Part shown: positions 30,335-62,362 of the stretch, one piece after another | How positions within the stretch are numbered: the stretch's first letter is position 1 | How the letters are laid out: each line of letters begins with the position of its first letter | Assembly: GCF_013376095.1 (NCBI RefSeq) | Contig: NZ_JAAMFN010000010.1 | Span: forward strand, 1-64,000 | Length of the DNA: 64,000 nucleotides | Direction: 5' to 3' | Source: Arthrobacter sp. SDTb3-6 | GTDB taxonomy: Bacteria > Actinomycetota > Actinomycetes > Actinomycetales > Micrococcaceae | Notes under the pieces: generated by a model | Database searches by the model: none | The model's input: the letters and a program-made list of their open reading frames with translations, nothing else | What the model was told of the DNA's origin: nothing | Position numbers and translations under genes: made by a program

Positions 30335-30584
30335 GAGTTCCCCTGTCGTTGGAGTGATCATATCCCTAGTCGGGTCTTGTCGTGGTTTACCTGATATGAG
30401 TTGAGGTTGGGTACACCAGCGTCTTTGGCCTTCGTTGTAGCCGGGTCGATCCATTGCCTATGCTTTCCAGAATGGAGGCACCTCGAGTCGCTGTCATGAC
30501 GCGATGGATGGACTGGTGGCCTTAGGCCACATTTTTCTTGCCTTGTCGGTGCCTGGAGCAGCGACGCAAGAGTAATGCCCAATG

Positions 30585-31790
30585 CTATTTATCGTCGTCG
30601 GTCGGCCAAGCTCCTTCAGACATATCTGAACCAAACGCCTGAAGCGTTTCAGAATTATCGGGAGCTTCGTGCGTCTTCTGGACGTAGTGCTTGCTGGTGA
30701 TCTGCTCGCTGGAGTGCCCCAACTGTGCGGTTGCGGCTGACATGCCCTGGGTGTTGGCCAGGATGGTTCCGACGGACTTTCGGAACGTGTGGGGTGTAAC
30801 CCAGTCAAAACCGACGGCCTTCCTGGCGTCGCGCCATTGCTTCCGGAACCCGTTGGGATCCCTAATGGTCAAGACACTGGAGGGGAACACCAAGTCAAGA
30901 TCATTCTGGCGAACCGGATCAGCCTGGCGCCGGCGCAGCATTTCCACAGCAAAGGGCGGCAGGAAGTAGCGTTGCCGTGAATTGGCGCTCTTCGGGTGAT
31001 CCTGGATCTGGAGTCCGTTCTTGCCCCGAACGTCGATGATGGTCCCGCGAACAGTGACCGTTGGCTTCTCGGCGGAAAGGTCGACGTCGGACCATCGAAT
31101 GGCCAGTGCCTCGCCGATCCTGACGCCGGTGGCCAGCATGATGTCTACAACGTCGAGGATGTCCTTTTCGTGCAAACCGTTCTGCCGCCCTGTTGGTTGC
31201 TGCCAGACGTAGACGCCGCGACGAAGTTCGGCCACCTCGTCGATGGTCAATGCTCTAACTTCCTTGCTGGTGGTGGGGATGCGGGCGACCTCACGGAGTG
31301 GATTAGCGGGGGCTGCACCATGGCGGGTTGCCAGGGATAGCATGCCGGTCAGCAGCGTTTTCGACATTTTGGCCGTGGCATTGCCGTGTTTGGTTCGCAC
31401 ACCCTTGAGGAACTTATCCAGGGTGGATACATTGGCTTCACGGATGGTGAGGTTGCCAACGCCGGGCAGGATGTACGTGTCTATGATTTCCCGGTAGCGT
31501 CGGCGTGTATTGGCGGCTCTGTCGAGGTCTTCGAATTCCAGCCACCAGAATTTGGAGAGTTCACTCATGGCCATGTCGGGGCTGATCACGTCATCGCTGG
31601 GTGGCATCATCGCGTTGAGCTTCGCCAGAAGGGTGGCTTCGGCTTGTGCCCCTGTTGGCCCGGTTGATTGGTACATGCGAGGCTTCCCGTCGTAGCCGCG
31701 CATGGTTGCCCGGGCCCTCCATGTGGTTGGCCCGAGCTTCCGGCGGGTTACTTTTCCCCACGTCCCGAGTGGTGTTTTTGCTCTAGCCAA
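30585..31790 (-). CDS. int: tyrosine recombinase (phage-type integrase)
   Basis: A 401-residue integrase. An arm-binding N-terminus (GKVTRRKLGPTTWRARATMR) is followed by a core-binding SAM-like domain (FWWLEFEDLDRAANTRRRYR) and the catalytic domain. Catalytic residues: Arg in ATGVRIGEALAIRW, a Lys in the beta-hairpin region, HTFRK (HxxR), LGHSS (His) and the nucleophile Tyr in SKHYVQKTH. It begins at TTG 31790, overlapping the end of the excisionase gene (stop 31783-31785), so the two are coupled. It is the only recombinase that could act on the att-like sites here, and its arm-binding domain is a candidate reader of the AAAACGTGA repeats (inference). Confidence 0.92.
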   Translation of the reverse strand: MARAKTPLGTWGKVTRRKLGPTTWRARATMRGYDGKPRMYQSTGPTGAQAEATLLAKLNAMMPPSDDVISPDMAMSELSKFWWLEFEDLDRAANTRRRYREIIDTYILPGVGNLTIREANVSTLDKFLKGVRTKHGNATAKMSKTLLTGMLSLATRHGAAPANPLREVARIPTTSKEVRALTIDEVAELRRGVYVWQQPTGRQNGLHEKDILDVVDIMLATGVRIGEALAIRWSDVDLSAEKPTVTVRGTIIDVRGKNGLQIQDHPKSANSRQRYFLPPFAVEMLRRRQADPVRQNDLDLVFPSSVLTIRDPNGFRKQWRDARKAVGFDWVTPHTFRKSVGTILANTQGMSAATAQLGHSSEQITSKHYVQKTHEAPDNSETLQAFGSDMSEGAWPTDDDK

Positions 31791-39707: not shown

Positions 39708-41164
39708 AAACCACCCAGCAAGCCGTCACCTTCATCCCAAGCCACGAGTCCCGCAGCGCCAGGCGAGAACGCCAGGCACTGCAGGAGAAGGCCGTCGCCG
39801 GCGGGCAGGAGCCCTTCTTGAAGAAGTTGGGACTGTTGGCCGGCGACGAAGAAGGAGCCGACACAAGAATTCGGCAGCAGCCGTTCGGTCCGCATTCCCT
39901 CAGGGGCCCGCACCGGCTGCACCCGGCCCCTCACAGGGCCTCCACCATGACCTTCGCCGCCGCCTATCCGTTCATCACTGAATCCGGGCTCGGCCACGAA
40001 GGCACCTACATCGGCAGCGACGTGTTCGGCTCCGGAGCCTTCTCCTACGATCCCTGGGTCCTCTACGACAAGGGCGTCATCAGCGGCCCCTCCATCGTCA
40101 TCATCGGCACCGTGGGCACCGGCAAATCCATGTGCGCCAAATCCCTCGTGGCCCGCTCCATCACTCTGGGACGCAAGGCAGCCGTCGCCTCCGACCCCAA
40201 AGGGGAATGGGTCCCCGTCGCCAACCCCGTCGGCGGGAAGGTTATTTCTGTTGGACCTGGCCGGGCCACCAGGGTCAACCCGCTGGACGCGGGTCCCCGC
40301 TCCCGGGATCTGTCGAACGCGCAATGGCAGGCCGTGGTCCGGCAACGACGCCGGCAACTGCTGGTGGCGCTGGTATCCCTCATGCGCCAGGGTGTGCCGA
40401 TGCATCCGGTCGAACACACCGCCCTCGACATGGCCCTGACCGAGGCCGTTGCCGCCAACGAGACACCGACACTGCCCATGGTCCTGGGGTACCTGCTGAA
40501 CCCTTCGAAGGAGACGAGGGAACTCGTCGGCCCTGATGGTGGCCGTGCCGTCGCCCATTCCCTGCGCCGCACCGTCTCAGGGGACCTGGAGGGCATGTTT
40601 GACGCACCCTCCACCGTTTCGTTTGACGCGGACGTGCCGATGATGGTCATGGACACCTCGGCCCTGATCGGCGCCTCCGAACAGGCCCTATCCCTGGCGG
40701 CCGCCTGCGGAGCCACGTGGCTTGAGGCGGCCATCACCAACCCCGACGGCGGCAAGCGCATCGTGGTCTACGACGAGGGCTGGCGCATGCTGGCCGACCC
40801 TTACATGCTGGTCAAGATGAGCGAACAGTGGCGGCTCGCCCGTACCTATGGCATCGCGAACCTGCTGATCATGCACAAGGTCGCGGACCTGAACGAGATT
40901 GGCGACAGCACCAGCGGCCACCGCCAAAAGGCCCTCGGACTGCTCACCGAGGCCGACACCCGGATCATTTACCGGCAAAAGCACGACTCCATGCGCCTGA
41001 CCAAGGACGCGCTCGGGCTCACCGAGGCCGAATGCGGCCAGGTTGAGGAACTCCCCAAGGGTGTCGGGTTGTGGAAGGTCGGCAACCGTTCCTTCATCGT
41101 TGCCAACCAGGTCACCAGCAATGAACTTACCGTCTTCAGCACCGACCACCGGATGATGCCATGA
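39704..41164 (+). CDS. VirB4/TraC-like conjugation ATPase
   Basis: A 486-residue ATPase. The P-loop GTVGTGKSM is at about residues 134-142. Walker B-like ...RIVVYDEGWRMLADPYMLV contains the DEGWR-type motif typical of VirB4/TraU-like proteins, and motif C-like LLIMHKVADLNEIGD follows. The N-terminal 80 residues are polar and lie in place of the usual VirB4 N-domain, which is carried by the SCO6880 protein. The ATGA overlap at both ends couples it to SCO6880 and the coupling protein. Confidence 0.85.
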   Translation: MKTTQQAVTFIPSHESRSARRERQALQEKAVAGGQEPFLKKLGLLAGDEEGADTRIRQQPFGPHSLRGPHRLHPAPHRASTMTFAAAYPFITESGLGHEGTYIGSDVFGSGAFSYDPWVLYDKGVISGPSIVIIGTVGTGKSMCAKSLVARSITLGRKAAVASDPKGEWVPVANPVGGKVISVGPGRATRVNPLDAGPRSRDLSNAQWQAVVRQRRRQLLVALVSLMRQGVPMHPVEHTALDMALTEAVAANETPTLPMVLGYLLNPSKETRELVGPDGGRAVAHSLRRTVSGDLEGMFDAPSTVSFDADVPMMVMDTSALIGASEQALSLAAACGATWLEAAITNPDGGKRIVVYDEGWRMLADPYMLVKMSEQWRLARTYGIANLLIMHKVADLNEIGDSTSGHRQKALGLLTEADTRIIYRQKHDSMRLTKDALGLTEAECGQVEELPKGVGLWKVGNRSFIVANQVTSNELTVFSTDHRMMP

Positions 41165-42972
41165 GCATCGTGCACGCAGACTCCACCCCGATGATCACGG
41201 TTGGCCTGTTCTGCGCGGCGGGGTATGTCGGGTTCAGCGGGCTCACAGTGGCGGCCGCCAACGTCGCCTCCCAATGGAAGTGCGGGCATGGGCTGGAGGG
41301 CCCACCCAGCCCGGTGGCCACAGTCGGACTGTTTACCGGCAACTTTTCCGCCATCGGCCAACCACCGCCAGGATGCTCGATAGGCATAGGAGCAGTCTGG
41401 GTCCTCCTTGGCCCGGTGCTGGTCCTGCTGCTGGTTGCCGTCCTGTTCACCTTCTTCCTGTGGCGGAGCTGGCGTCAATCCGGGGCGTGGCTGCGCCAAG
41501 ACATCCTCGGCCGCGACGGCATGGCCCAGCGGGCCGAAGTGGTGCGCGAATACGGCCGTCGGGCCGCCCGCAAGCGGGGCAGGATCACCCGCCCCGGACT
41601 GAGACACCCGTCATTGGCTGACGTGTCCTGGACCCTGGGCACCTCACGCGGCACGAAGGTACACGTCTCGACCGAGGAATCCATGGTCATCCAAGGCGCT
41701 CCACGTTCCGGCAAAGGCCTCTTCGTCGTCATCAACGCCATCCTCGACGCGCCGGGAGCGGTGGTGACAACCTCGACCCGAGCCGACAACCTGGCCGTCA
41801 CCATGAAAGCCAGGGCCACCGGCGGGCGCCCCGTGACGGTCTTTGACCCGCAAGGCATGTCCGGACTGACATCCACCCTGCGCTGGTCCCCGGTGCGGGG
41901 ATGCGAAGACCCGGACGTGGCCGTCCGGCGCGCCTTGGTCATTTCAGCGGACTCGAAAATGAGCGGCGAAAACGCTGCCTGGCAGAAGCGGGCACAAATT
42001 GTCCTGCAATGCCTCCTGCACGCCGCAGCCCTATCCGGTGAAGGCATTCAGGCCTTCCGCCGCTGGTCATCGAACCCCACCCTGGCCACCGAGGCACTGG
42101 ACATCCTGAACGGGCCACGGGCAGCCCTGGGCTGGCATTCAGACCTGATGGGCATCCTCGAAGACGACCCCCGCAACACCTCAAACTCCTGGATCGGTGT
42201 TTCGGCGGCTGTCGCACCCCTGTCCTCACCCCGCGTCCTGGCCGCCCTGGACCCGGTGAACCGTGAGGACGAATTTGATCCCCAGGCCTTCATCCGTGAC
42301 CGCGGGACCCTTTATCTGATCGGCACAAAGTCCGGGGCAGCAGCGGCTGGACCCTACCTGTCGGCGCTAATTGACGACATCGAGGCGGCGGCCAGGGACA
42401 TGGCCTTCACCGCCCCGGGCGGCAGGCTGGATCCGCCCCTGTCCCTGATCTTGGATGAAATCGCGAACCTCTCGCCCTGGCCCGGACTGCCCATTGTGCT
42501 CTCCGACGGTGGCGGCATCGGGATCTCCACCATGGTCGTGCTCCAATCCCTCTCTCAAGCCCGTTCGGGCTGGTCGATCGAAGAGGCCTCCACCATTTGG
42601 GAATCGGCCATCATCAAGGTCATTTTCGGTGGCGGCTCGGACGAGAGGGATCTGCGTGACCTGGCCTCCTTGTTGGGGGAGCGTCGCCACACCTACAGGA
42701 CCCACTCCTGGTCATCCCAGGGCCGGCAGGAAGGTGAACAAATTCGGGATCTGCCTGTCATTGCTCTGCATGAAATTCGGCGCCTGCCCGCAGGGACCGC
42801 GCTGATGCTGGGCCGGCGTACCCGCCCCATCCTGTTGGACCTGCGCGGTTGGCACCAACGCCGCGACGCGGCTGCACTGGGCCGCTCTAAGATCGAGGCC
42901 GAGGACGCCCTCGCTCAGGGCCACATCCACCAACAAGTCGTGGAGGCCGAGGTCCGTGATGAATCCCTTTGA
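41161..42972 (+). CDS. VirD4/TraG-type coupling protein
   Basis: A 603-residue hexameric ATPase that brings the relaxase-DNA complex to the channel. Two N-terminal membrane helices (MITVGLFCAAGYVGFSGLTV; VLLGPVLVLLLVAVLFTFFL) precede the P-loop GAPRSGKG at about residues 180-187. Walker B is LSLILDEIANLSPWP, and the following GISTMVVLQSLSQARSGW is the typical sensor stretch. The final part carries ERRHTYRTHSW, as in actinobacterial homologues. It overlaps VirB4 by ATGA and the DUF4913 gene by 17 bp. Confidence 0.9.
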   Translation: MSIVHADSTPMITVGLFCAAGYVGFSGLTVAAANVASQWKCGHGLEGPPSPVATVGLFTGNFSAIGQPPPGCSIGIGAVWVLLGPVLVLLLVAVLFTFFLWRSWRQSGAWLRQDILGRDGMAQRAEVVREYGRRAARKRGRITRPGLRHPSLADVSWTLGTSRGTKVHVSTEESMVIQGAPRSGKGLFVVINAILDAPGAVVTTSTRADNLAVTMKARATGGRPVTVFDPQGMSGLTSTLRWSPVRGCEDPDVAVRRALVISADSKMSGENAAWQKRAQIVLQCLLHAAALSGEGIQAFRRWSSNPTLATEALDILNGPRAALGWHSDLMGILEDDPRNTSNSWIGVSAAVAPLSSPRVLAALDPVNREDEFDPQAFIRDRGTLYLIGTKSGAAAAGPYLSALIDDIEAAARDMAFTAPGGRLDPPLSLILDEIANLSPWPGLPIVLSDGGGIGISTMVVLQSLSQARSGWSIEEASTIWESAIIKVIFGGGSDERDLRDLASLLGERRHTYRTHSWSSQGRQEGEQIRDLPVIALHEIRRLPAGTALMLGRRTRPILLDLRGWHQRRDAAALGRSKIEAEDALAQGHIHQQVVEAEVRDESL

Positions 42973-47617: not shown

Positions 47618-50600
47618 TTACAGCGAGGGGCCGACAACGGGGGCTGTTGAGTGGATGTTGGCCGTCGGTCCGGGCGCCTGCTTTGCAGCAAAGGTGTTGG
47701 TCGTGATGGCGGTGATGCGGGCCTCGAGCCGGGCCCGCTGATCGGAATGGTCCCAGTCCGTGGCGCTGGGTGGTGCCCCGAGCGGCAGTGCGGGGTTGTC
47801 GATGTCCCAGCGGTCGCGGAAGCCGGCGACGTCCCGCACTAGGGACTTCCACGCCTCGTCACTGGGTTTCAGGCCGGTTTGTGCCCGCAGGGCACCCATC
47901 CAGGGCTCTTCATTGGCGAAGGCGTGGACGGCCACCGCGGACAGCCGTTTGGTGATCCGCTGTTGAACGTCGTCTAGCAGTACACGGAGGTCTTCCCGGT
48001 CCGTGGGCACTGATACTGGCGCCATCGTCAAGGACGACGCGGCGGCTAGGTGCTGCTGGAGAGGTTGCAGGCGGGAGTGCACGACGGCGGCAACGTCGCG
48101 GGCGCCTGCTGTTGGCCCCAGGCCGTCGACCAAGACCCGTTCAGCCTCTGGCCGGTTGGTGCCGGCGGTGCGCCGCCACGCAGCCACCATGGCGCCCCAG
48201 GATGGGGACGCTTGCATTTGGGCCACCAGGGCGGGGGACTGGGTGTTGAGGAGTCGGGTGATGTCGTCGGACGCGGCGATCTGTGCCAGGTAGTCATGCT
48301 CGGCCAGTAGGCGGGACAGGGAGTTGGCCTGGTTGCGTTGTTCCTCGCGGGCCTCGTGGGCGGTGTGCTCGGCACCCTCGATGGAGAGTATGGCGCTGAG
48401 GATTTCCCGCCAGTCCGGCAGGGATGACGGGTCCACGCCGTGGTGGTCGCGGGGGTCGGGTTCGCTGATGTAGGCGTGATTGCCGGCCTTCCCGCGGGTC
48501 ATGGAGACGTAGAAGAGTTCGCGGGTGAGCCTGCCTTCACTGACTAGGGTGTGACCGGTGTCCACGGTGATGCCCTGGGAGCGGTGGGCTGTGGTGGCGT
48601 AGCCGAGTTCCACGGACTCGGCGAGATAGCCGGCGCCCAGGACGATTCGTGCACCGTTGTCCTGGCGGATCCCTGCGATGGAGCCGTCCGGATTGGGCGA
48701 ACCAGACACAGTGATGAGGGTGCCGTTGCGAATGAAGTCGCCCGTGTCATCGAGGAGACGGCGGTCGTTGCGCCTGGCCAGGATCGTGTCGCCTCGTCCG
48801 GCGTGGAGCCCGTCGCTGAGATCCACGGTGGCTTCCGCATCGACGGCGCCGGAGCCGACGCGGTCGGCCTGGGCGCGTTCGTTGAGCATGGCGACGGTGT
48901 CGTTGTCGGGGGCTATCAGGATCGAGGTCTTCCCGGTGCGGATGTCGGCGTCCCAGCGGTTGTAGGCGTCATCGACCATGGCGTCGTAGGTGCCGCTGCT
49001 GATGCGCTCGTGGGCTGTGTACTCGGTGATGACATTGATGTCGCCTGTGCGCAGTTTCAGGGAGGCGGTGCGTTCCCACTCATGGGTGAATCGCCAGACC
49101 GTGCTGAGCCGTTGCGCGCAGCCCGACCTCTCCAGCCAGCCCAGGACCCCGCCGGCGTCGATGGAATCGAGCTGTGCCGGGTCGCCGACCAACAGGATCT
49201 TGGCCCCAGCACCGGTGGCCTGGTCCAGGAGTGCGGCGAGCTGGTAGGTGGAGACCATGGATGCTTCGTCGATGATGACCAGCTGGTTGGGCCGGAACTG
49301 CCACTTTGTCTGGGTCGCTGTCAGGGCACTCATGCGCTGCGCTAGGCGTTCCAAGGATTTCCGGGCCTGAGTGTCCTGGCGTGGGGATTGACAGGCTGCT
49401 TGGTACCTTTGTGCGGCTTCTGCGTAGTGTCCTGCCCGTACGGCGGCGCCGGGGCCGGTGGATTCGTAGAGCCATTTGCTCACGTTGTTTGTGGCCAGTC
49501 CGAGCTCGCGGCCCAGGACGTCGGCAGAGGCCGCTGCCGGGGCCAGCCCCACTACGGTCCCCGCACCGAAGCAGTCTTCCCAGAGGGTTCTGACGGCGCT
49601 CATCGTGGTGGTCTTGCCCGTCCCGGCCGGGCCGACGACGGCGTCCAGCCGCCTCCCGCTGGCCAGAACAGCCTCGGCCGTCCTGCACTGCTCTTCCTGC
49701 AGGGGCTCGCCGCGGGTGGTGAGGAACTGTTGGAGAGCGTCCTGGACTGTCGTGTGCTCGAGGTGGGGGCCGGCGTCGTGCGTGTGGGCTCCCATAATGG
49801 CTTCCTCGTTCGCCAGGGTGGAGACATCGGTGAACAGGTGGGCGCTGGCCAGGTCAAAGACACTGCGGCCGTTGAATGCTAGGTCCGGGGCTGTGGTGAT
49901 GGGGATGGAGTAGCGGAACTCGTTGAGCGCCACGGACTGCTCCTCGGCGGAGGTGGCGATGGCGTCCATGAGGCGGATCCGGTCGGCGGCGGTGGCGCAG
50001 CGGATCTCAAGACAGACCCGTTCTGCCTCGGCGATCAGGTTCCAGCGGTTCCAGGTGGCCCGGCGCCTGGCGACCAGGTCCTTCACCAGCCCGGCCGTGC
50101 TGTCGATCCAGGCAGTGTCCGTGTCGGCTGCGTTGAGCGGGTGGGTGTGGGAGCGGTTGATGGTTGCCGCCAGCACCGCCTCGGTGTCGAAGCCCTTGGC
50201 CTGGGCGCGTTCGCGCCACTGCCGGGTGCGGGTGTTGAGGGGGATCACGTCGTGGTTCTTGGCGGTCCGGGTGGACAAGGTGGCCTGTTGCCGCAGCTTG
50301 AGTTTTACCGCGTTGCTGGGTTCCCGCCCGTGGGTTTCCAACCAGTCGTGGATGAGCCTGTCTGCCTCGATGTCGATCAACCGGGACCTGCTGGAGAACT
50401 CGCGGATCAGCGCATCGTCGACACCGGAGAGTTCGAAACTGTAATTGTGGACGGCACTGGTGGGTATGCGGACCTCGGCCTCTGTCCCCAGATCCCGGCC
50501 GAGCTGGTCATAAAGCAGCCCGTTGTAGTGCTCGCTGGCGGCCACGGTGGCCTTGTAAAGGGTGCGCGAGTCAAGGGTGGTCCAGACACCGTCGCTGACA

Positions 50601-51196
50601 CGTTGGGCGCGGTTTGCGATGACGACGTGGGTGTGCAGCTGGGGGTCTCCGGAGCGGGACTCCCAGTGGTCGAAGGCGGCCGCGATGGCGCCGTGGACGC
50701 CAACGTGGGCCACGCCGCCGTGTCCGGCGCGGGTGTGGATGGCGGAGCTCTCCAGCCAGGCCAGGGTGGCTTCCATGGCCGCGTGGTGGGCTGCCATGAC
50801 CCTGTCCTTGTACTCGGCGTCACTCAGGGCCCAGAGCACGGAGACGGACTTGGGCACACTGAAGGTCAGGTCAAAGCCGGCCACCGCTGCCCGGCGCACG
50901 GTTTGGCCGTTGGTGCCGGTGACGGTGGAGGCCTGGTTGGGTGTCCGGCCGAGGGATGCTCCCGTGGAGGGGTGTTCACCTCGTTCAAAGAGGGCTTTCG
51001 CGGCCGCGTCGGTGACGGTGTCGTGGAGGTTCATGCCGATGCCGGCAAGTCCAGCGCCGAGCCATTGCCCGGGCGGGTTGCTGGCCGCGGTGTAGTAGCC
51101 GGTGAGGTCGCGGGTTTCAACGTCGGCGTGGCTGGTGGTCTTGAGCAGGTAGGAGACGCCGGCCTCGGTGGAGAGGCGGGCTATGGAGACGGTCAT
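47618..51196 (-). CDS. MobF relaxase-helicase (TraA/TrwC type)
   Basis: A 1192-residue protein that nicks oriT and unwinds DNA for transfer. The relaxase domain (1-320) has a candidate catalytic tyrosine pair in LTGYYTA (Y34/Y35) and the metal-binding histidines in FDHWESR (H177) and DPQLHTHVVIAN (H188, H190). The helicase has Walker A GPAGTGKTTTM near residue 525, Walker B LVIIDEASMV, and RecD-like motifs (TTAHRSQGITVDTGHTLV; FYVSMTRGKAGNHAYI). The C-terminal 250 residues are helical. The start overlaps the small upstream gene (ATGA). The size is normal for actinobacterial MobF proteins. Confidence 0.93.
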   Translation of the reverse strand: MTVSIARLSTEAGVSYLLKTTSHADVETRDLTGYYTAASNPPGQWLGAGLAGIGMNLHDTVTDAAAKALFERGEHPSTGASLGRTPNQASTVTGTNGQTVRRAAVAGFDLTFSVPKSVSVLWALSDAEYKDRVMAAHHAAMEATLAWLESSAIHTRAGHGGVAHVGVHGAIAAAFDHWESRSGDPQLHTHVVIANRAQRVSDGVWTTLDSRTLYKATVAASEHYNGLLYDQLGRDLGTEAEVRIPTSAVHNYSFELSGVDDALIREFSSRSRLIDIEADRLIHDWLETHGREPSNAVKLKLRQQATLSTRTAKNHDVIPLNTRTRQWRERAQAKGFDTEAVLAATINRSHTHPLNAADTDTAWIDSTAGLVKDLVARRRATWNRWNLIAEAERVCLEIRCATAADRIRLMDAIATSAEEQSVALNEFRYSIPITTAPDLAFNGRSVFDLASAHLFTDVSTLANEEAIMGAHTHDAGPHLEHTTVQDALQQFLTTRGEPLQEEQCRTAEAVLASGRRLDAVVGPAGTGKTTTMSAVRTLWEDCFGAGTVVGLAPAAASADVLGRELGLATNNVSKWLYESTGPGAAVRAGHYAEAAQRYQAACQSPRQDTQARKSLERLAQRMSALTATQTKWQFRPNQLVIIDEASMVSTYQLAALLDQATGAGAKILLVGDPAQLDSIDAGGVLGWLERSGCAQRLSTVWRFTHEWERTASLKLRTGDINVITEYTAHERISSGTYDAMVDDAYNRWDADIRTGKTSILIAPDNDTVAMLNERAQADRVGSGAVDAEATVDLSDGLHAGRGDTILARRNDRRLLDDTGDFIRNGTLITVSGSPNPDGSIAGIRQDNGARIVLGAGYLAESVELGYATTAHRSQGITVDTGHTLVSEGRLTRELFYVSMTRGKAGNHAYISEPDPRDHHGVDPSSLPDWREILSAILSIEGAEHTAHEAREEQRNQANSLSRLLAEHDYLAQIAASDDITRLLNTQSPALVAQMQASPSWGAMVAAWRRTAGTNRPEAERVLVDGLGPTAGARDVAAVVHSRLQPLQQHLAAASSLTMAPVSVPTDREDLRVLLDDVQQRITKRLSAVAVHAFANEEPWMGALRAQTGLKPSDEAWKSLVRDVAGFRDRWDIDNPALPLGAPPSATDWDHSDQRARLEARITAITTNTFAAKQAPGPTANIHSTAPVVGPSL

Positions 51197-53871: not shown

Positions 53872-55497
53872 ATGACATCCGAAATTCCCGCCGCTGATCC
53901 GGTCTCCATCCCCGTAGTCGACTTACCTGCCGCTGGTTCGGTCTCCATCCCCGTAGTCGACTTGTTCGCCGGGCCAGGCGGGCTGAACGAGGGATTTTCT
54001 AGCATCGGAGAAGACGAAGGAGCCCCCCTGTTTCAAACGGTCGCTTCGTTTGAGATGGAGGCTAATGCCGTCAAGACTCTAAAGCTTCGCTCGATCTACC
54101 GTCATCTCAAGCGTAACGGTGGGGTACCTCAGTCTTACTACGACTACATAACGGGCGTAATGGACTGGGACGAGTTCACAACTGAACCGAGAGTAGATGC
54201 GGCAGTTGAGGCAGCCGATGAGCACGTACACGAAATTGAATTGGGCCAAGCAACGCGCAATGACGTAGGGGATCGGATAAAGAAGGCACTGGCTGCTTCA
54301 CCGAAGAATGCCTCGGGGGACTGGGTTTTGATTGGGGGTCCACCATGTCAGGCGTACTCCCTAGCGGGACGATCACGCCGAACGAACGACATCAAATTTG
54401 CGTTTGATAAGAAGCATTTCCTTTATGAAGAGTACCTAGACATCCTCAGGCGATTCAAACCCACGGTATTTGTCATGGAGAATGTAAAAGGGTTACTTTC
54501 TTCAAAGAATCACGGTGTCAGTATGGTCGACCAGATACTAAACGATTTGCGTCGACCGAGTGATTCGGTTAGTTACGACGTCAGGTCACTTGTTGTTGAT
54601 CCAAAAAACGGCAAAATACTGCCTAAAGAGTACGTCATACGAGCTGAAGATTACGGCATTCCACAGAAGCGTCATCGAATAATTCTCCTTGGTGTTAGAA
54701 CAGACGTGGTAAAGCGAACTGACTACGCAGTCCTGAAGGAGACACCGAAGGTCACCGTGCGGGACGCCATAGCGGACCTCCCGATTCTGCGTTCACGGAT
54801 TTCACCGATGCGCTTTGACAGTGACGAGAACTGGGAAATACTCAGGCAGCGAGCGGTTGCCCGACGAGGCGCACTTGAGATTGACGAAGCTGACGATTCA
54901 CTGGTGCAGGATTTCACGGAGCCTGAAACAACCGTCGACGGTTCCGGGATTGAAGCTCTCATCGATGATTCCGGGTCCGATGACCCCAAAATAAGATACC
55001 AAAAATGGATCCACGACGATTACCTTGAGAAGTCTCTTCAGCACCAATCAAGAAGCCATATGGAATCGGATATTGAACGTTATGCGCATCTCGCGTGGAA
55101 GGCTGGCGAATTAGGAAAGAGCCCTAAGTTCTCCGATCTGCCCGCCGGCCTAGAGCCCAACCACAAGAACATTGGCCAGATAAACACGCCGTTTCTCGAT
55201 CGGTTTAGGGTTCAAATTTGGGACGAACCAGCGACGACTATAGTCTCCCATATTTCCAAGGATGGTCACTATTACATTCACCCAGATGAATCACAAATGA
55301 GGAGTCTCACCGTTCGCGAAGCGGCGCGGCTCCAGACTTTTCCAGACAACTACTTCTTTGAGGGAACGCGAACCATGCAATACCACCAAGTCGGGAATGC
55401 CGTACCGCCATTGCTGGCTCGCCTCATCGCAGAAAAAGTTGTGGAGACCCTTCGTTTGGATGGAAAGAGCGAAAAGCGGATAGCTAAAACTGGCTAA
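53872..55497 (+). CDS. DNA (cytosine-5)-methyltransferase
   Basis: A 541-residue C5 methyltransferase. Motif I is VVDLFAGPGGLNEGF (FAGPGG at 32-37), motif IV is GGPPCQAYS with catalytic Cys159, motif VI is VFVMENVKGLL and motif VIII is QKRHRIILLG. The C-terminal motifs IX-X are present (SLTVREAARLQTFPD; QVGNAVPPLLARLIAEKVV). The target recognition region is about residues 330-440. It faces the GHKL-Z1-DUF4420 operon across 120 bp and is probably its self-protection enzyme. The N-terminus has a 13-residue duplication (SIPVVDL twice) before motif I. Confidence 0.93.
   Translation: MTSEIPAADPVSIPVVDLPAAGSVSIPVVDLFAGPGGLNEGFSSIGEDEGAPLFQTVASFEMEANAVKTLKLRSIYRHLKRNGGVPQSYYDYITGVMDWDEFTTEPRVDAAVEAADEHVHEIELGQATRNDVGDRIKKALAASPKNASGDWVLIGGPPCQAYSLAGRSRRTNDIKFAFDKKHFLYEEYLDILRRFKPTVFVMENVKGLLSSKNHGVSMVDQILNDLRRPSDSVSYDVRSLVVDPKNGKILPKEYVIRAEDYGIPQKRHRIILLGVRTDVVKRTDYAVLKETPKVTVRDAIADLPILRSRISPMRFDSDENWEILRQRAVARRGALEIDEADDSLVQDFTEPETTVDGSGIEALIDDSGSDDPKIRYQKWIHDDYLEKSLQHQSRSHMESDIERYAHLAWKAGELGKSPKFSDLPAGLEPNHKNIGQINTPFLDRFRVQIWDEPATTIVSHISKDGHYYIHPDESQMRSLTVREAARLQTFPDNYFFEGTRTMQYHQVGNAVPPLLARLIAEKVVETLRLDGKSEKRIAKTG
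53900..53963 (+). repeat. 39-bp tandem duplication in the methyltransferase N-terminus
   Basis: CGGTCTCCATCCCCGTAGTC and the following GACTT occur at 53900-53924 and again at 53939-53963, 39 bp apart and without mismatch. The reading frame is kept, giving SIPVVDL twice. Confidence 0.9.
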
Positions 55498-55619
55498 AGC
55501 ACTTCGTTGGCCAAGCTTCTTCCGGAATAGGCGGGCTCAGCGGTAAACGGATTCCAGGATAATCCATCCGACCAACTGATCGCGATTGGCCCATTGCATA
55601 CTCACTCGATCGCCGGCTG

Positions 55620-56312
55620 CTAGTCGTCATATCCGGGAAGGCGGGCAATCGGATCCCCGTTGAAGGTCTTCCAGAGCTGGCGGCCATTAGACGTCGCCCC
55701 AGTGAGAATACAGGCCGCCTTTGAAGGTGAATCAAATAACATATGCTCTATAAGCACCAGCTTGTCCTCTGAATATGACAGGACCCCTTGATCGATCAAT
55801 TGCCGACGGGCCTTCTGATAATATTCTGGGAGGGAAGGGGCTTCTGAACTTGCGGCCACTGCACCCGCGATGACAAATACGCCACCTCCAACTGCGTATC
55901 CTTTTGCTTGCGAATCTCGTGATTCCAAATAGACCGCTGGATTGAGACTATATTCATAATAGTCTTCGTCTCCCGAAGCGTCCAAAGGGGCCCAATATAT
56001 TGCACTTGCAATGCCGTCGATAATAGTAGAGACAATCCAGAATCTCTCGTCAGTCACCACATCGCGTTCCTCAACGCGCCATTCGTGATCGCCTTGGGTC
56101 ATGATTAGTGACTGTGTGGCTGTTCGTTTTCTCGAAGATTCCAATCCAAGGACTTTGGCCGCCTTTGTGAGCCAGTCGTACTGTTCCACACTTATTCTTG
56201 ACTGCCATGTGCCAGGGCGATAGTGGGGCGACCCGGTGAATTGACAGAATCCATTTGACCAAATTGTCATCATAGACTGATCCACGCGAAGAAGTGTAAT
56301 TGAATCAATCAA
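55620..56312 (-). CDS. DUF4357-like C-terminal protein, last gene of the Z1 operon
   Basis: A 230-residue protein. Residues 185-225 (LFDSPSKAACILTGATSNGR then QLWKTFNG) match the DUF4357 pattern of a helical motif with SxNGxxxWK, found in restriction-linked proteins. The N-terminal two thirds (WLTKAAKVLGLESSRKRTAT; FWIVSTIIDGIASAIYWAPL) are unfamiliar. It overlaps the DUF4420 gene by 8 bp, so it is co-translated with the restriction-like genes. In related operons the usual last gene is an AIPR protein; this one is much shorter and different. Its role is unknown. Confidence 0.65.
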   Translation of the reverse strand: MIDSITLLRVDQSMMTIWSNGFCQFTGSPHYRPGTWQSRISVEQYDWLTKAAKVLGLESSRKRTATQSLIMTQGDHEWRVEERDVVTDERFWIVSTIIDGIASAIYWAPLDASGDEDYYEYSLNPAVYLESRDSQAKGYAVGGGVFVIAGAVAASSEAPSLPEYYQKARRQLIDQGVLSYSEDKLVLIEHMLFDSPSKAACILTGATSNGRQLWKTFNGDPIARLPGYDD

Positions 56313-57303
56313 CTCTGATCAGGTCCTTGACATAGATCTTTCCGCTTTCGACCGAAGACGCGACAAGATTATTCGTGCAGCCGGACATATCGAGAGCGTA
56401 GTTAACGGAGGTGACTGTATCTGGTATTCCATTAGAAAACGATTTGAGCGTAAGGGCAGGGAAAGTGTCATCAATTTTATATAGCTGTTCTGAGACTATT
56501 CTAAATGAAAATCCCGGTTGGTGATTGAAGTACGACACCCAACCAGCTTGAGCCAATTTCTGGAGGAATTGATCTTGACGGCTTGGATCATCTTGCAATA
56601 TATTCAATCCAGTGGTGACCAGTTTGCCCAATGAGTTCCCGGCGGCCTCATCTGCTGATATGACCAAACTAAACAGGTACAAGGAGCCGTTTTCTAGGGG
56701 CGTCAGTTGTTGGAGACTGGCAATTTGATGGACCGGCCCTTTGAGGGCTGTTGAACGTGAAGTCTTGACTTCGACAGATACCCCTTTCCCTGCGAAATCA
56801 TGCAAATTGCCTTCCGGTCCCAGCCAAGTATCTAAAGATTCAGAAATTCCGGCCCACCGGAGCAGGAACCATAGTTCGCCAATGAGGCCCAAAGCCCGGT
56901 CTTCGGTTAGTTCCGCTGTATCAGAGGTCCAAAGCCAACGCCAAGTTCGCAGTACGCGGAGCGTGAGTGCGACATGATCCTGGCTTCGCGTGTCGAGTTC
57001 TTCTTGGAGTGATTCGGCGAAGGCTAGAAAAGGTTCCCAATACCGTGAGTCACGACAAACAACCACGATCCACTTAGCAGCCGGTCCATGGGACATCTGA
57101 AGTTCCTCAATGGAGGCGGAAACGCCCTTGGTCTCGAATAGGACCGTGCCAATCGTCGTGGTCGTGTTGTCGCAGAGAACCACACAACGTCGGCCAGTGC
57201 TGTCAACGGCAAGCCACAGTCCGCTTCCGGTTTCCAATTCAAACCCCTGAATATTTTCCGGCGGGATATGCAGGTTATTCCAACGATCGAGAATGCTAGT
57301 CAT
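56305..57303 (-). CDS. DUF4420 PD-(D/E)XK nuclease
   Basis: A 332-residue protein. GPEGNLHDFAGKGVSVEVKT at about residues 165-185 gives the Asp and Glu-X-Lys of the PD-(D/E)XK fold, followed by STALKGPVHQIASLQQLTPL as in DUF4420 (restriction-type) proteins. It starts at ATG 57303, overlapping the Z1 gene by 8 bp; the open frame runs to 57345 but the start at 57303 has the normal N-terminus (MTSILDRWNNL). In the Z1-type systems this is the predicted DNA-cutting subunit. Confidence 0.85.
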   Translation of the reverse strand: MTSILDRWNNLHIPPENIQGFELETGSGLWLAVDSTGRRCVVLCDNTTTTIGTVLFETKGVSASIEELQMSHGPAAKWIVVVCRDSRYWEPFLAFAESLQEELDTRSQDHVALTLRVLRTWRWLWTSDTAELTEDRALGLIGELWFLLRWAGISESLDTWLGPEGNLHDFAGKGVSVEVKTSRSTALKGPVHQIASLQQLTPLENGSLYLFSLVISADEAAGNSLGKLVTTGLNILQDDPSRQDQFLQKLAQAGWVSYFNHQPGFSFRIVSEQLYKIDDTFPALTLKSFSNGIPDTVTSVNYALDMSGCTNNLVASSVESGKIYVKDLIRVD

Positions 57304-60046
57304 TAGAGGCAACCTCCGCATCGGAAATTGGACGTTTTCGGCCACGAACGTAAGGGACTGACGTTATGGTTTGAGAAGGCGGTAGAGAAATGCCAACGCC
57401 TATAACAGCCGGTTTTCCATCCGGTTCATCAAACAGATCGTGGCGGTTCTTAGTCGTAGCTGTGGAGTAGGGGCTGATTGGATAAATAAGTAGCAGTCCT
57501 TCACTGACATCTCTTACGGATCTCAGGGCCAGGCCAGGAGTGATCCCGCTGCGTTCGGCTGGATCCAACGATTGGTCCTTTTTGTATGCGAGTTCGGCAG
57601 CAGCAATCTGCTCACCGCTCAGGCCGATGGATTCATCCCCGGCACGGAAGTCTTCGCCCGTCGAGGGATTCATTAGAACGCCGATGCTCAAGTCATCTAA
57701 CTTCAGACGGCTACGCGTCATTGCGGTAATTGGGCCTAGAAAGTCGTTGCCAAAGTCGATTTCGTACTTGGTTGCATCATATTTGCCATGAACTATCGCG
57801 ATGGTCCAATTGATCAATTCTGCATGATTTATGGCCATTCTTTGAATATAGTCGGCAATGGTTTGTGCGTCGAATGACGAAGCGTCTTGTGCAGAATTTA
57901 GATTTTGGAGATATCCCACGACCGTTTCCCAAGGGATTCCTTGCCAAACGGGTTGTTGACTGGTTCCGTGTCTGTAATGCGGCTCCGAAAGCGACTGGAC
58001 CAAGATGCTTGTGTTATCCACATTCTGCTTTAGCCATGAATCATCTTCAAGTAGGAAGCGAACAGTCTGAAGCTGACGACCCGAGTATGTCTGTTCAACT
58101 AGTTCAGCACTGCCCATACGGTTTTTTGCCGTTGCCAACATGGCGGGATGGGTTCGAACTTTGGGAGCTACTTCTCTGGGAGTCAAATTGTTTTGTTCAT
58201 ACATTTTTATTTCGTCCCGAAGCTCTTCCTCTACAAGGGACAAATGCCGAAATTTGAAAACCAGTTCTTTGGTGGTCCAGAGCCTCGTGAGGTCAGCATA
58301 TTTACTTCTATATCCGAACCAACGGCCCATTTGGAGCAAGGTGTCGTAATTATTAGCATCGCGACAGAAGTATGATATCGTAAGGTCCTCAATAGTCAGG
58401 CCACGGCTTAAGCGGTTGCCGCCCAAAAGGAGTACTTTTAGATTCGCATCTTTTTCGTAGTCCAAGATATCTTTGCTCGTACTGTTGAGTGCAATGAGTT
58501 CGAATGAACTTGAGTGCTCGAAGAATTTATCGATCCAAGGTTCAATTTGATCAAATGTACGAATATTAGCTATGTCATAGCTCGATACTACTGGTAGATA
58601 GTCATTGTTCCATCTGTCATTAAGTACTTCCCGAAGTGCCGAACGATCATAGAGCCATTCTTGCCGGATTTTTTTGACATGAGCGGTGAGTGCTTCAAAG
58701 AGGCTGTTCTGGAGCTGGGTCTTGTGTGATGTGTGGACCAGCATGCTGCTCATTCCACCATTCAAACGTTCGGATTTGGCCGCGGATGACAATATCCAAT
58801 CTAGGAACGCTTGATGAAGTGTCGGCGTTACTACGGGCATCCAATCAGCTTCGTCTTTTTTCTTGGGAGCCAGGAGTGGTATTTCGTTGGTTGGTATATG
58901 GCGAATGACATCTAGGCCCGGAATTGGATCGTCTTGACCGTCAACAGCCAACCTGCCGAAAATCTTTTCTGCGCCCACATATGCACCTGGGCGTGGCAAG
59001 CTAATAATGAAGTTTCCGGGATAAAGATCTTGACCATGAATTTCGCTAGATGCTTCTGGGTCAATAAATATGTTTGCGAATGGTGTGGCAGTGTAGGCTA
59101 CATATGTCACACGCCTAAATTTTCCAACTAGTTGTCTGATTAACCCATTAATTGTGGAAGGATCTAGTTCCTTCTCCGCAGAGAAGTCTCCCTGGTCGGC
59201 GTTGTTAAGGTCGGAGTAATCTTGACTGTCGTAGTTCGTATCGATGGACGCTTGGTCTGACTCGTCATCGATTATGAGCACCGGAAGATCTGTTAGATCG
59301 CTTTCGAGCCATTCATTCACGCGATTCAAAACTGTTGCGTTCTTCTTCACGACCATCAGCCCAGGCATTCCTCGGCGCAATGGGGTGGCATCTGTTCCAG
59401 GCTTGAAGTCTCCGGTAGGAGTGGACTGGGTAATGTTCCACATTGCGTGTTGCCTGGGCGCTTTGCCAACCCCTTTAGGGTCGTCGACCAATCCAAGCTC
59501 TAGGTCTAGGCGCCGTTGGGTTTGGTATCGCAGGGAGTTGTGGATTCCCGATAGTACGATGACCAGTTTGTATCCACGGTCAACTGCCTTCGCAATGAGA
59601 GCTGTAAAGTTAGCTGTTTTCCCGGATTGCACATACCCCAGAACAAGTCCTGCGACACGAAATTCTTCCTTGGCGTAGGGAGCGCCGTCCTTGGGGTCTT
59701 CTATGTAGGACAGGATCTTGGTGGACCAATGGTCGAGGTCGTCAATGGCCTCTGGCGTCCAGTGTTTGCGCGTACTGAGATACCTGTTTAGAGTGCTCCA
59801 AAGATACCCATTGCTGGGTTCGTAATCTTTGATCCACGGGAGAGGGCCGCCTGGAACGACGACTGCGCCTGGTTTCGCGAATGTGGTCACCTTCTGTTCT
59901 GCATCAAAATATGCCTGGATCCCGTCCTTTGATTCGGGATGAAGCAAGTCGATGCAATAGTCAATGGATTTTCCACTTGTCGTCGAATAGGCGCGAACGA
60001 CGAAAGCTTTCTCACGGAATTGTTCGGAATTACCAACCAAGCTCAT
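57296..60046 (-). CDS. Z1-domain superfamily II helicase-like protein
   Basis: A 916-residue motor protein. Walker A is GYVQSGKTANF near residue 140, Walker B is LIIDDESDQAS near 260 and motif III-like VTYVAYTATPFANIFIDP follows. The Z1 region has LLGGNRLSRGLTIEDLTISY near 547, then QMGRWFGYR. This is the helicase of the GHKL-Z1-DUF4420-methyltransferase systems described by Iyer, Abhiman and Aravind in connection with MutL/MORC ATPases. It overlaps the GHKL gene by 17 bp and the nuclease gene by 8 bp, which implies one complex. Confidence 0.9.
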   Translation of the reverse strand: MSLVGNSEQFREKAFVVRAYSTTSGKSIDYCIDLLHPESKDGIQAYFDAEQKVTTFAKPGAVVVPGGPLPWIKDYEPSNGYLWSTLNRYLSTRKHWTPEAIDDLDHWSTKILSYIEDPKDGAPYAKEEFRVAGLVLGYVQSGKTANFTALIAKAVDRGYKLVIVLSGIHNSLRYQTQRRLDLELGLVDDPKGVGKAPRQHAMWNITQSTPTGDFKPGTDATPLRRGMPGLMVVKKNATVLNRVNEWLESDLTDLPVLIIDDESDQASIDTNYDSQDYSDLNNADQGDFSAEKELDPSTINGLIRQLVGKFRRVTYVAYTATPFANIFIDPEASSEIHGQDLYPGNFIISLPRPGAYVGAEKIFGRLAVDGQDDPIPGLDVIRHIPTNEIPLLAPKKKDEADWMPVVTPTLHQAFLDWILSSAAKSERLNGGMSSMLVHTSHKTQLQNSLFEALTAHVKKIRQEWLYDRSALREVLNDRWNNDYLPVVSSYDIANIRTFDQIEPWIDKFFEHSSSFELIALNSTSKDILDYEKDANLKVLLLGGNRLSRGLTIEDLTISYFCRDANNYDTLLQMGRWFGYRSKYADLTRLWTTKELVFKFRHLSLVEEELRDEIKMYEQNNLTPREVAPKVRTHPAMLATAKNRMGSAELVEQTYSGRQLQTVRFLLEDDSWLKQNVDNTSILVQSLSEPHYRHGTSQQPVWQGIPWETVVGYLQNLNSAQDASSFDAQTIADYIQRMAINHAELINWTIAIVHGKYDATKYEIDFGNDFLGPITAMTRSRLKLDDLSIGVLMNPSTGEDFRAGDESIGLSGEQIAAAELAYKKDQSLDPAERSGITPGLALRSVRDVSEGLLLIYPISPYSTATTKNRHDLFDEPDGKPAVIGVGISLPPSQTITSVPYVRGRKRPISDAEVASND

Positions 60047-61463
60047 GTGCGACTCCTGGGTTGTCGAGGATCAGAGCCTCAATGGTCCGACGCAGAGCAT
60101 CTGACTCGTTGATGCTGTCGGCAGCCTTCTCCAAGGCTTTTCTCCTGTTTTGAAGAAGGCGCTGGGGTGGTTGCACCGGTGCTGGAGGCCAAGCCACCGC
60201 TCCCGTTGATGTATTTCCAGACGGCATGGAATCCTGCTGACTAGGCATGACGTTTGACTTGGGTTGTGTGGGTGCAGGAACATCAAGTTTTTCACGTCGA
60301 GCGTCTTGCTCTGTTTGGATATCAGGAGTAATACTTGCCGCCTTTTTAGCGGCAGCTTGTCCATAGGAGTATTTGGCTTGGCCCCGTAGGGCGGCGATCT
60401 TGGGCTTTAGTAGATCCCGAAGCATGCTTGGTAGCGTGACTGTCATTTTAGATATGTTGATCCCAAAGGCGGCATCCAGCTGAGGGAAGAATTCGAGGGC
60501 AACACGGGCCTGTTTTGTATGTTCGTCAGCAGCTCCGAGACGGGACCAACCACCGGATTGGATCAGTCTGTCAGAGCGGTAGATGTAGAAACCTTGCTGT
60601 TGGTTCCACTTCGAGGGACCAGAGAGCCTGTCGAATTCCTGGGGGGAAGAAAATTCGTCCTTTCTGGGAAGGATCCAAGCGACTGCCCTGACGCTCCCTG
60701 CCACACCGTGACCCGTTATTTCGAACTGGTCATCGCTGAATTGCTTAGTGGCGGCCTCGCCGGGAGCAAAGGGGTTCCACGGCTGGATGGTGCGTCCATT
60801 GATTTTGAGGCTAATTGTATGCCCCAAGCGGCTTGTTGCCGTTCCCTCCAGAAATTTGTGGAACACCATGCCTAAGTGTTGTTCGAGGTCTTCGGCGTGA
60901 TCGAAGAATCGGCCCTTCGCACGCTCGGTGTCCTGAAAATGATCGCCAAGAATTCGGTCGAGTTTGTACCAAACGACCGATGTACCAGTCTCACCACTGA
61001 GGGGTTCGGTCGCTTCATCCGGAAGCTCGGCCTCAGGAACTGACTCGATTACCCATTCATTGCGTCGGGCGATGAGCTCCTGGTCGAACCGACGAGCGTA
61101 GACTTGACCGTTTCCTTCCAAGGCGCGAGAAGAGACCAAGAATTCGGTGCATTGTGACAAGCTGGCGGTCTTGAGGCCGAACCCGAACTTCCCGAGGTCG
61201 TCGCTCTTGTAGTCTCGTTCGGAACCGAAACGTAGAGCCTCTGTGATCCGGTGGGGAGTCATGCCGTCTCCGTCGTCTGCGATGCGGATGAATGAATCTG
61301 CCCCGGCCCAGGCCATGGTTATTGACACTTCATTTGCATTGGCTGCAATGCTGTTGTCTACAAGGTCCGCGATGGCGCCCCGGAACGAATAGCCAACGTC
61401 TCTGAGACTGCTTATCATGCGTGCCGCAGAAGGCAAAACCTCGATTGACTCTCGTGTCTCCAA
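60030..61463 (-). CDS. GHKL ATPase, MORC/MutL-like
   Basis: A 477-residue protein with a Bergerat fold: N-box DLVDNSIAANA (Asn37), G1 DDGDGM (63-68) and G2 GKFGFGLKTA (91-100). Residues 220-370 resemble the S5-like transducer domain (AVAWILPRKDEFSSPQEFDR; LEFFPQLDAAFGINISKMTV). The C-terminal 100 residues are low-complexity and helical. ATP-driven clamp closure on DNA is the expected action, by analogy with MutL and MORC. It is the first gene of the four-gene overlapping operon. Confidence 0.9.
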   Translation of the reverse strand: METRESIEVLPSAARMISSLRDVGYSFRGAIADLVDNSIAANANEVSITMAWAGADSFIRIADDGDGMTPHRITEALRFGSERDYKSDDLGKFGFGLKTASLSQCTEFLVSSRALEGNGQVYARRFDQELIARRNEWVIESVPEAELPDEATEPLSGETGTSVVWYKLDRILGDHFQDTERAKGRFFDHAEDLEQHLGMVFHKFLEGTATSRLGHTISLKINGRTIQPWNPFAPGEAATKQFSDDQFEITGHGVAGSVRAVAWILPRKDEFSSPQEFDRLSGPSKWNQQQGFYIYRSDRLIQSGGWSRLGAADEHTKQARVALEFFPQLDAAFGINISKMTVTLPSMLRDLLKPKIAALRGQAKYSYGQAAAKKAASITPDIQTEQDARREKLDVPAPTQPKSNVMPSQQDSMPSGNTSTGAVAWPPAPVQPPQRLLQNRRKALEKAADSINESDALRRTIEALILDNPGVAHELGW

Positions 61464-62164
61464 CTAAAACTTCCCCTTGTTTGCCGTGTCCAACAGTTGG
61501 TATCAAGCCCAAAATTGAGCCCGGGTGCGACGATTACACCCATAGCAGCCCGACTGGTCCTCTTTGAAGTCTAGCTAAGGTGTGCCCTGGTGTCGGTCTC
61601 CTCTGTGCTGAGCGCAATGGCAGACGGGAATGTGACCACCGCGATGCCCTCGAAAGGAGCGCCTCGCTGATTGGTGTGATGACTGGTGGCGGGAGGTATG
61701 ACTGTGGAGAGTGTTTGAGATCCACTGTCCTGGGTATCTCACGTTGGTGTGTCCACAGCCGCGACGTTTACAGAGGAGCAACATTGGGCAGGCAGGCAGG
61801 CAGGCAGACCGGACGGTTCGGTTCGGTTCTTCCATCACGTAATTGACGCCATTCGTGTGATGTGGTCAACGGTTATCAGCGGGTGAGCACCGGTGCCCAG
61901 CCATGGGAACTGGTCCGATCTGCACCCGATTTTGCCGACAATACGAGAACTCTCCGGTGTAGTCAGTCGATGATTCAACTCAACAGCGACTGGAGAATCA
62001 GGCATCACTCGATTGCAGCCGTCGTCGACGACTTGGATTGATGAGCGAACGCTGTTTACGATCGGGAAATCAGGGCGCCAGGAGTGCGAGCACTACTTTG
62101 CTGCGACGGACATTATTTGAATCAAGTGTGCCCGCACTGATTGTGCGGTTGGGCTTCACGCACT
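61464..62164. other. gene-free right part of the D-E segment
   Basis: 701 bp without a credible gene. It contains the promoter region of the GHKL-Z1 operon near its left end and a GGCA microsatellite at about 61787-61807. No terminator or RNA is seen. Confidence 0.5.
61787..61807 (+). repeat. GGCA microsatellite
   Basis: About five uninterrupted GGCA units. Tetranucleotide runs can change length by slippage. It is outside any recognised gene, so a coding effect is not expected. Confidence 0.7.
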
Positions 62165-62362
62165 GAAAAACGGGAGCAGAAATTGAGCCTATTTCGACTC
62201 CAGCGAAGGCCAAAAACGTGACCAAGTTTTCGTTCAAAAACGTGAGTAAAACGTGACTTGGGCCGTTTTTGGCCTTAAACGCCTCTGACCTGCGGAACAT
62301 AACCGCAGGTCAGAGGCGCTTTTTGGTGCCCCGGGCGGGAATTGAACCCACGACCAAGAGAT
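62165..62362 (+). repeat. attachment-like site E at the tRNA gene
   Basis: The left arm has GAAAAACGGGA (about 62164), CAAAAACGTGA (about 62211-62221), TCAAAAACGTGA (about 62234-62245) and AAAACGTGA (about 62248-62256). The core begins at 62304 with CCGCAGGTCAGAGG and passes directly into the 3' part of the real tRNA-Arg gene. The right-arm repeats of sites A-D are absent. This is the pattern expected where an integrated element ends at its tRNA target. Confidence 0.75.
62281..62325. terminator. 16-bp hairpin between the element end and tRNA-Arg
   Basis: CGCCTCTGACCTGCGG (62281-62296), loop AACATAA, then CCGCAGGTCAGAGGCG (62304-62319), a perfect 16-bp stem. TTTTT follows on the plus strand, so it ends plus-strand transcription running towards the tRNA. 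On the minus strand it lies 3' of the tRNA. Its right half is the conserved core of the att-like sites. Confidence 0.8.

Follow-up and report, generated by a model that had tools for sequence, protein, structure and literature searches.

The MzaABCDE system, reportedly first described by Gao in 2020, is one of several described systems that stand close to the gene set we report here, which comes from Arthrobacter sp. SDTb3-6. The set occupies positions 53872-61463 of a 64,000-nucleotide stretch that we call the window (positions 1 to 64,000 of NZ_JAAMFN010000010.1, contig C2 of a 4.3 Mb genome in 144 contigs). A plus-strand C5 cytosine DNA methyltransferase (MTase) faces four overlapping minus-strand genes, which run from a GHKL ATPase through a Z1 helicase-like protein and a DUF4420 nuclease to a small protein that ends in a DUF4357 domain. 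This last gene is our main concern. With it, the set has the look of an uncommon but genuine form of a type of defence system already known.

Systems of this kind have been predicted in print. An operon reported in 2008 (PMC2292703) brings together a helicase with the motif DThhQXuRhFG, an E-D-ExK nuclease, a MORC or paraMORC ATPase, a cytosine methylase, Vsr and an AIPR protein, a context predicted there to serve restriction–modification (RM). A 2022 paper (PMC9523054) predicted defence for such a context. It treats Z1, the nuclease and the MTase as the central genes of a putative defence system, with three more genes in type I and AIPR in type II; type II also goes with MORC. The same text writes DUF4220 for the nuclease and calls MzaA a sigma factor, and we infer that the three extra genes of type I are T1a, T1b and DUF6339. 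In CglI/NgoAVII (PMC4267653), a DEAD-Z1 motor is combined with a separate nuclease and an MTase, and cleavage depends on ATP. Most recently (2026, PMC12839542), the DUF3780 proteins of DUF499-centred, BREX-related RM-like systems, some of them fused to a RAMA domain, were proposed to be modification readers.

As far as sequence can tell, the window set is remotely related to MzaBCD and to these predicted restriction-like systems. Its GHKL, Z1 and DUF4420 genes lie in the order B-C-D, adjacent and overlapping, and their products match the NCBIfam models of MzaB (expectation value, E, 2.4e-69), MzaC (3.5e-131) and MzaD (2.7e-23); PADLOC assigns them to the same three proteins. Their scores of 233.9, 438.8 and 82.6 bits, however, are far below the NCBI equivalog cut-offs of 850, 1500 and 420. 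The set also differs from MzaABCDE in having no match to AIPR (MzaE) in its genome, a DUF4357 protein in last place and a C5 MTase alongside. Compared with the third MORC/paraMORC type of PMC2292703, the window sequence DTLLQMGRWFG fits DThhQXuRhFG, and the E-D-ExK nuclease, the GHKL ATPase and the DNA cytosine methylase are all there; Vsr, frequent in that type, was not found in the window, and DUF4357 is not named in the available part of the paper. The core of PMC9523054 is likewise present (Z1, 925 residues in the paper, a PD-(D/E)XK DUF4420 nuclease and a cytosine MTase), but the window has no AIPR match, as type II would require, and no T1a, T1b or DUF6339 after DUF4420, as in type I. 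CglI/NgoAVII resemble the window in their motor, nuclease and MTase, but their nuclease is of the PLD-B3 kind rather than DUF4420 and they comprise three genes without a GHKL ATPase. The nearest published parallel that we found to the last protein is the group of DUF3780-RAMA proteins of PMC12839542: there too a small extra protein, joined to RAMA in a subset, belongs to a multigene RM-like system. That system has DUF499 and an N6-MTase at its core, however, and the DUF3780 profile misses the N-terminal part of the window protein.

The initial annotation held that the DUF4357-like gene replaces AIPR, and this is the part of it that we have had to give up. We surveyed Z1 operons from the class (394 genomes, with a match at E 0.001 in 43; regions were fetched for 38 of the other 42), from viral contigs (42 loci, with L131-L138 left out), from the GTDB collection (the best 80 of 593 Z1 matches) and from searches of the phylum and the order (6 of 21 other genomes examined in the order search, 3 of 8 in a further one). 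Z1 proteins with a phmmer E above 1e-55 or a length under 700 were excluded. Each row was labelled from the four same-strand open reading frames (ORFs) downstream, as given by our own ORF caller; contig ends and miscalled ORFs yield a false 'none' (L140 is an example). By this label the 149 rows, which include repeats between collections, divide into 64 with AIPR, 48 with the T1a/T1b/DUF6339 set, 35 with none of these and two with DUF4357. When representatives were checked against Pfam, L050 proved to be AIPR and L065 to carry DUF6339; none of the T1a or T1b proteins checked in this way belongs to a Pfam family.

The Z1 tree places the two DUF4357 rows together. It is a quick tree of 121 proteins, made after dropping near-copies and rows above 1150 residues, with support from the Shimodaira–Hasegawa-like approximate likelihood-ratio test (SH-aLRT) only. 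One large part of it holds all 53 AIPR rows, and the T1a rows, 36 in number, are likewise all together in a different part. The window and the second DUF4357 locus, L258, form a pair (SH-aLRT 99) inside a group of six with L141, L140, L139 and L089 (97), and these six, together with L142, L259 and L226, make up a clade of nine (97). The seven other members have neither AIPR nor DUF4357 downstream; the contig of L140 ends after Z1, leaving six that can be read. The relatives have a C5 MTase, GHKL, Z1 and DUF4420, their loci include Vsr, and what follows DUF4420 on the 3' side varies, from an AbiEi/AbiEii pair in L139 to Vsr and ORF6N in L259. A search for AIPR at E 0.001 came up empty both in the window's genome and in that of L258, G086 (one of 14 control genomes was positive). 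Since the six readable relatives and both genomes are without AIPR, the last gene appears to have been added rather than swapped for it, and the tree, the survey and the AIPR search together led us to reject replacement. The simplest reading of these sequences is that an operon already without AIPR acquired the DUF4357 gene once, at its 3' end. The picture of AIPR as the default last gene needs correcting, as several branches do without it.

The survey held other Z1 arrangements. A different AIPR-less type (L152, L155, L157, L159, L161, L173, L184, L188 and L217) has a GHKL protein of about 580-700 residues in most cases, a Z1 protein of about 772-789, then DUF4420, with no related gene after it. 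A tandem of Z1 systems occurs in L205 (Arthrobacter sp. zg-Y844), with MTase-GHKL-Z1-AIPR first and Z1-DUF4420-T1a-T1b-DUF6339 after it. T1a (625 residues) and T1b (295 residues), at L058:11808-15315 and in other T1a loci, belong to no Pfam family; the PADLOC candidate PDC-M33A matches T1a in its N-terminal part only.

L258 comes from the window's family, though from another genus. Its GHKL, Z1 and DUF4420 genes are followed by one for a DUF4357 protein of about 242 residues, with an ATG at 14900 or 14903; the start overlaps the DUF4420 stop, and the DUF4357 score is 38.3 bits, just below the cut-off of 38.4. The window's last protein, as sole query, matched it at E 3.1e-8 over residues 91-222. 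A survey of Z1 operons for a DUF4357 partner, which the initial annotation had proposed, thus finds one in G086, in the same place and with an overlapping start. The last gene is no peculiarity of a single operon, and the finding that the annotation said would speak against it, a gene kept in no other Z1 operon, did not arise. Identity between the two loci is low in all four proteins (GHKL 42.7%, Z1 45.6%, DUF4420 32.6%, last protein 20.6%), so the association between DUF4357 and the Z1 operon is, to judge from these alignments, old and not a recent copy. Between the two last proteins, kinship is clear in the C-terminal part, with 28 of 111 positions identical and a z-score of 11.1 that none of 1000 shuffles matched. 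In the N-terminal part the resemblance is weak (19 of 117 positions identical; z 3.8-3.9; 1 of 1000 shuffles). As controls, z did not exceed 1.9 for the parts preceding DUF4357 in 26 other proteins, and was 2.5 for the corresponding part of a DUF4357 protein in genome G110, which is not known to belong to any Z1 operon.

A third case did not turn up among 395 genomes of the family and 121 of G086's genus. We searched with a profile made from the two last proteins, both of which match it in full by construction. It matches 33 of the 395 family genomes, the window's and G086 included; elsewhere in the family the match starts at column 75 in G110 and at column 121 or later in the rest, and in G086's genus, where 15 of 121 genomes match, the 14 others do so only from column 132 on. 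Matches that begin at column 121 or later lie in the DUF4357 end, and we count no third case. Two candidate sources of the gene were rejected. For a copy from a plasmid, tblastn of the window's last protein matched one plasmid record, in the C-terminal part only, and the L258 protein had no match among plasmid records. For a copy from a phage, tblastn matched no phage record. Searches of the viral contigs with the last protein alone and with the two-row alignment gave no relative.

The last protein falls into two parts, an N-terminal one of no known family (approximately residues 1-118) and the C-terminal DUF4357 domain. Residues 1-118 matched nothing in NCBIfam, PADLOC, PHROGs or the sequences of the PDB, and Pfam offered just DUF6438 at E 0.24, much as the initial annotation would have it when it spoke of a 230-residue protein with an unknown N-terminal domain. 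AlphaFold2 run on the full-length protein from its single sequence gave a predicted local distance difference test score (pLDDT) of 32.5.

The C-terminal part is more informative, for DUF4357 is related in sequence to RAMA. Compared profile to profile, DUF4357 and RAMA (PF18755) align with 97% probability, E 1e-10 and a score of 59.6, set against scores of at most 16.4 for 40 column-shuffled RAMA alignments and at most 15.7 for two DUF4420 alignments and a GHKL alignment; the RAMA profile used here includes two matches, of seven, that are below the Pfam cut-off. A profile of DUF4357 relatives matches the RAMA-bearing frames in four of six loci (E 1.3e-7 to 1.3e-3), a small set from which L299 was excluded for the DUF4357-like stretch beside its RAMA match. 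Two short viral-contig proteins, L305:4175-4660 and L309:1908-2306, match both models; in the L305 protein the two matches share residues and each is above its Pfam cut-off (RAMA 3.7e-18, DUF4357 1.2e-10). These bridging proteins suggest that the two Pfam families belong together. The DUF3780 profile of PADLOC (its positions 256-354) also matches the last protein here, at residues 130-224 (1.2e-8). With the window sequence and 27 viral-contig relatives, the DUF4357 domain could be modelled confidently, with a predicted template modelling score (pTM) of 0.87; its alignment, searched against solved structures, gave weak matches only, with DEP domains first (E 0.15). The RAMA domain of MPND binds double-stranded DNA (dsDNA; PMC9963953), and the uncharacterised DUF4357 of restriction-associated proteins acquires a testable function through its sequence tie to RAMA. 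The accounts of DUF4357 that we found, as far as their available parts go, deal with GmrSD fusions and McrB neighbourhoods and do not mention Z1. In a genome of the window's genus, G024:C1:1007780-1008396 has a match to RAMA and, some 45 bases further along in a different frame, one that is DUF4357-like.

The anatomy of the window set is straightforward (Table 1). The initial annotation had described a fully overlapping operon facing a C5 methyltransferase, a variant of the MTase-GHKL-Z1-DUF4420 restriction-like set, and here it was right: all five ORFs are where it placed them, the five main Pfam assignments all exceed the Pfam cut-offs, successive minus-strand genes overlap by 17, 50 and 8 bases, and the MTase ORF is convergent with the operon, from which 122 bases separate it. 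The last of the overlaps is between the TTG start of the last gene and the DUF4420 stop. The 50-base overlap would shrink to 8 bases if DUF4420 starts at codon 15, as the alignment of its relatives makes likely.

Table 1. Genes of the window set and the modelled part of the last protein
Feature	Positions	Strand	Details
C5 cytosine DNA methyltransferase	53872-55497	+	541 residues; PF00145 DNA_methylase 1.6e-49
DUF4357 protein, last gene of the operon	55620-56312	-	230 residues, TTG start; PF14267 1.5e-14, 54.1 bits against a cut-off of 38.4
Modelled DUF4357-domain stretch	55623-55970	-	residues 115-230; RAMA-related by sequence; AlphaFold2 pLDDT 94.3
DUF4420 PD-(D/E)XK nuclease, MzaD-like	56305-57345	-	346 residues; PF14390 1e-42
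Z1 protein, superfamily 2 (SF2) helicase-like ATPase, MzaC-like	57296-60046	-	916 residues; PF10593 3.7e-60
GHKL ATPase, MzaB/MORC-like, first gene of the operon	60030-61463	-	477 residues, TTG start; HATPase_c_3 PF13589 1.5e-28

The core proteins carry intact motifs. GGPPCQ and MENV are present in the MTase, and DLVDNS, DDGDGM and GKFGFGLK in the GHKL protein; we take these to be the MTase and GHKL motifs, respectively. The Z1 protein contains GYVQSGKTANF, IDDESDQ and, at residues 568-578, DTLLQMGRWFG. In DUF4420, E157, D183, E192 and K194 are invariant across a five-row alignment of relatives. A profile of six GHKL relatives reaches the structures of MutL and of MORC2 and MORC4. We found no promoter or terminator patterns within 55300-55800; upstream of the operon, the 846 bases of 61464-62309 hold short ORFs only.

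The explanation we favour, with belief and doubt in about equal measure, is that the set is a restriction-like system directed against invaders, with the last protein as an accessory subunit that reads DNA or its modification for the complex. It builds on the gene order, the overlaps, the families, the intact motifs, the sequence relation of DUF4357 to RAMA and the second, diverged locus. The distant matches to MzaB, MzaC and MzaD also speak for it, as do the published predictions for this gene context, the dsDNA binding of the MPND RAMA domain and the DUF3780 parallel. The MTase would mark the cell's own DNA with 5-methylcytosine (5mC). The GHKL ATPase, as a clamp or loop former, and Z1, as an ATP-driven motor, would join the DUF4420 nuclease in one complex that attacks incoming DNA, and the gene set probably cuts foreign DNA. 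The RAMA-related DUF4357 domain may bind dsDNA or sense its modification state, and the N-terminal part may dock the last protein onto the complex or add a choice of target. Z1-GHKL-DUF4420 systems are widespread, and a form ending at DUF4420 set beside a form with a reader offers a clean handle on targeting.

Several points weigh against a reader of this kind. Even when E values up to 10 are allowed, the Pfam RAMA model gives no match to the window's own protein, and the relation between DUF4357 and RAMA is strongest in the last 40-57 residues. Fold searches with the DUF4357 model gave no informative match (Foldseek best E 0.68 against the PDB and 0.35 against BFVD; VIA-align best Z 2.6), and neither program listed CcrM or MPND, so a common DUF4357/RAMA fold is not confirmed; the absent match does not count as evidence for a new fold either. 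N6-methyladenine (6mA) had no significant effect on binding by the MPND RAMA domain (PMC9963953), and the role of RAMA as a 6mA reader is disputed. When the window's N-terminal part is the phmmer query, that of L258 scores 3.4 bits and that of the G110 protein 5.1. Because phmmer cannot separate the two, kinship between the N-terminal parts of the window and L258 proteins is suggested, not established, and we speak of a weak resemblance, not of a shared domain. No related MTase was found beside the G086 operon, which misfits a simple scheme of self-marking. Finally, the clade relatives do without the DUF4357 gene, and the five records behind L139, L140, L141, L142 and L089, in a search that had no positive control, held no relative of the last protein; the last gene is therefore not a core part of the system.

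The misfit in G086 leads to another way in which such a protein could work. Rather than the complex responding just to the absence of its own mark, a reader of modified DNA would steer it, and the window MTase would be a loosely attached, exchanged part. We consider this unlikely, although the kinship of the window MTase, the MTase result in G086 and the distribution of Vsr all lead in its direction. Among the ORFs of the compared loci, the window MTase is closest to that of L262, a T1a-type locus of the same family (52-55% identical, and also convergent with its operon), then to AIPR-type L218 (48%), and it reaches 42.7-44.2% with L139, L141 and L089 of its own Z1 clade. A search of G086 with it gave no match at E 1e-10, in a search that missed an AlwI-type MTase and so is not exhaustive. 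Vsr, to be expected near enzymes that make 5mC, is present in seven of seven loci of the clade relatives and was found in neither the window nor the L258 locus, and RAMA domains have been proposed to read modifications (PMC12839542). The window nevertheless keeps a full-length MTase with its motifs. The sole C5 MTase found in L258, part of a set of the AlwI/FokI type some 7 kb from the operon (phmmer 1.9e-17; Pfam), or an unlinked enzyme, could serve G086, and there are only two loci to argue from. A further reading, which we also consider unlikely, is a history in which this branch gained a reader (a new N-terminal domain plus a RAMA-type one) and shifted from merely marking its own DNA to recognising foreign DNA that is modified, losing Vsr and leaving the MTase exchangeable or, as in G086, dispensable.

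We find it quite unlikely that the last protein stands in for AIPR as an effector or toxin, killing infected cells or arresting them. It does sit directly after DUF4420, as AIPR does in 64 of the 149 rows, and AIPR proteins have been described with an N-terminal HEPN toxin domain (PMC3506569). Yet the six readable clade relatives, the window's genome and G086 offer no AIPR to be replaced, and the N-terminal part matches no nuclease or toxin family. A DNA-binding regulator, acting outside the restriction complex on the operon or on the balance between MTase and operon, seems to us similarly improbable. A small protein with a DNA-binding type of domain, encoded between two convergent transcription units, could well play such a part, but regulators of RM systems usually come first. 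Here the gene is last, in each of the two operons it begins within the nuclease gene, and the N-terminal part of its product shows no known regulator family. Least credible to us is a passenger gene, inserted by chance and with no role in the system. The DUF4357 gene is unseen in the other 147 surveyed rows, no clear kinship links the N-terminal part of one last protein to that of the other, and the 3' ends of these operons do gain other genes, such as AbiEi/AbiEii (L139) and Vsr with ORF6N (L259). Chance insertion fits poorly, however, with the same position and an overlapping start in a pair of operons that have Z1 proteins less than half identical, and with DUF4357 matches in just 33 of 395 family genomes. 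A DNA- or modification-reading subunit remains the explanation we prefer.

The surroundings of the gene set suggest how it travels. The G+C content of the operon is 50.5%, against 58.2% for the window, which also encodes an integrase, TrbL, a coupling protein (41161-42972) and a TrwC relaxase (47618-51196). From these we think the gene set is probably the cargo of a conjugative element; with mobility genes at 30585-51196, the window has the appearance of a plasmid or an integrative conjugative element bearing defence genes. Next to the phage-type integrase (30585-31790) lies a minus-strand gene for a NACHT-domain protein of 1371 residues (26339-30454). It has no PADLOC match at E 0.001 and is possibly an uncharacterised defence protein of the NACHT type.

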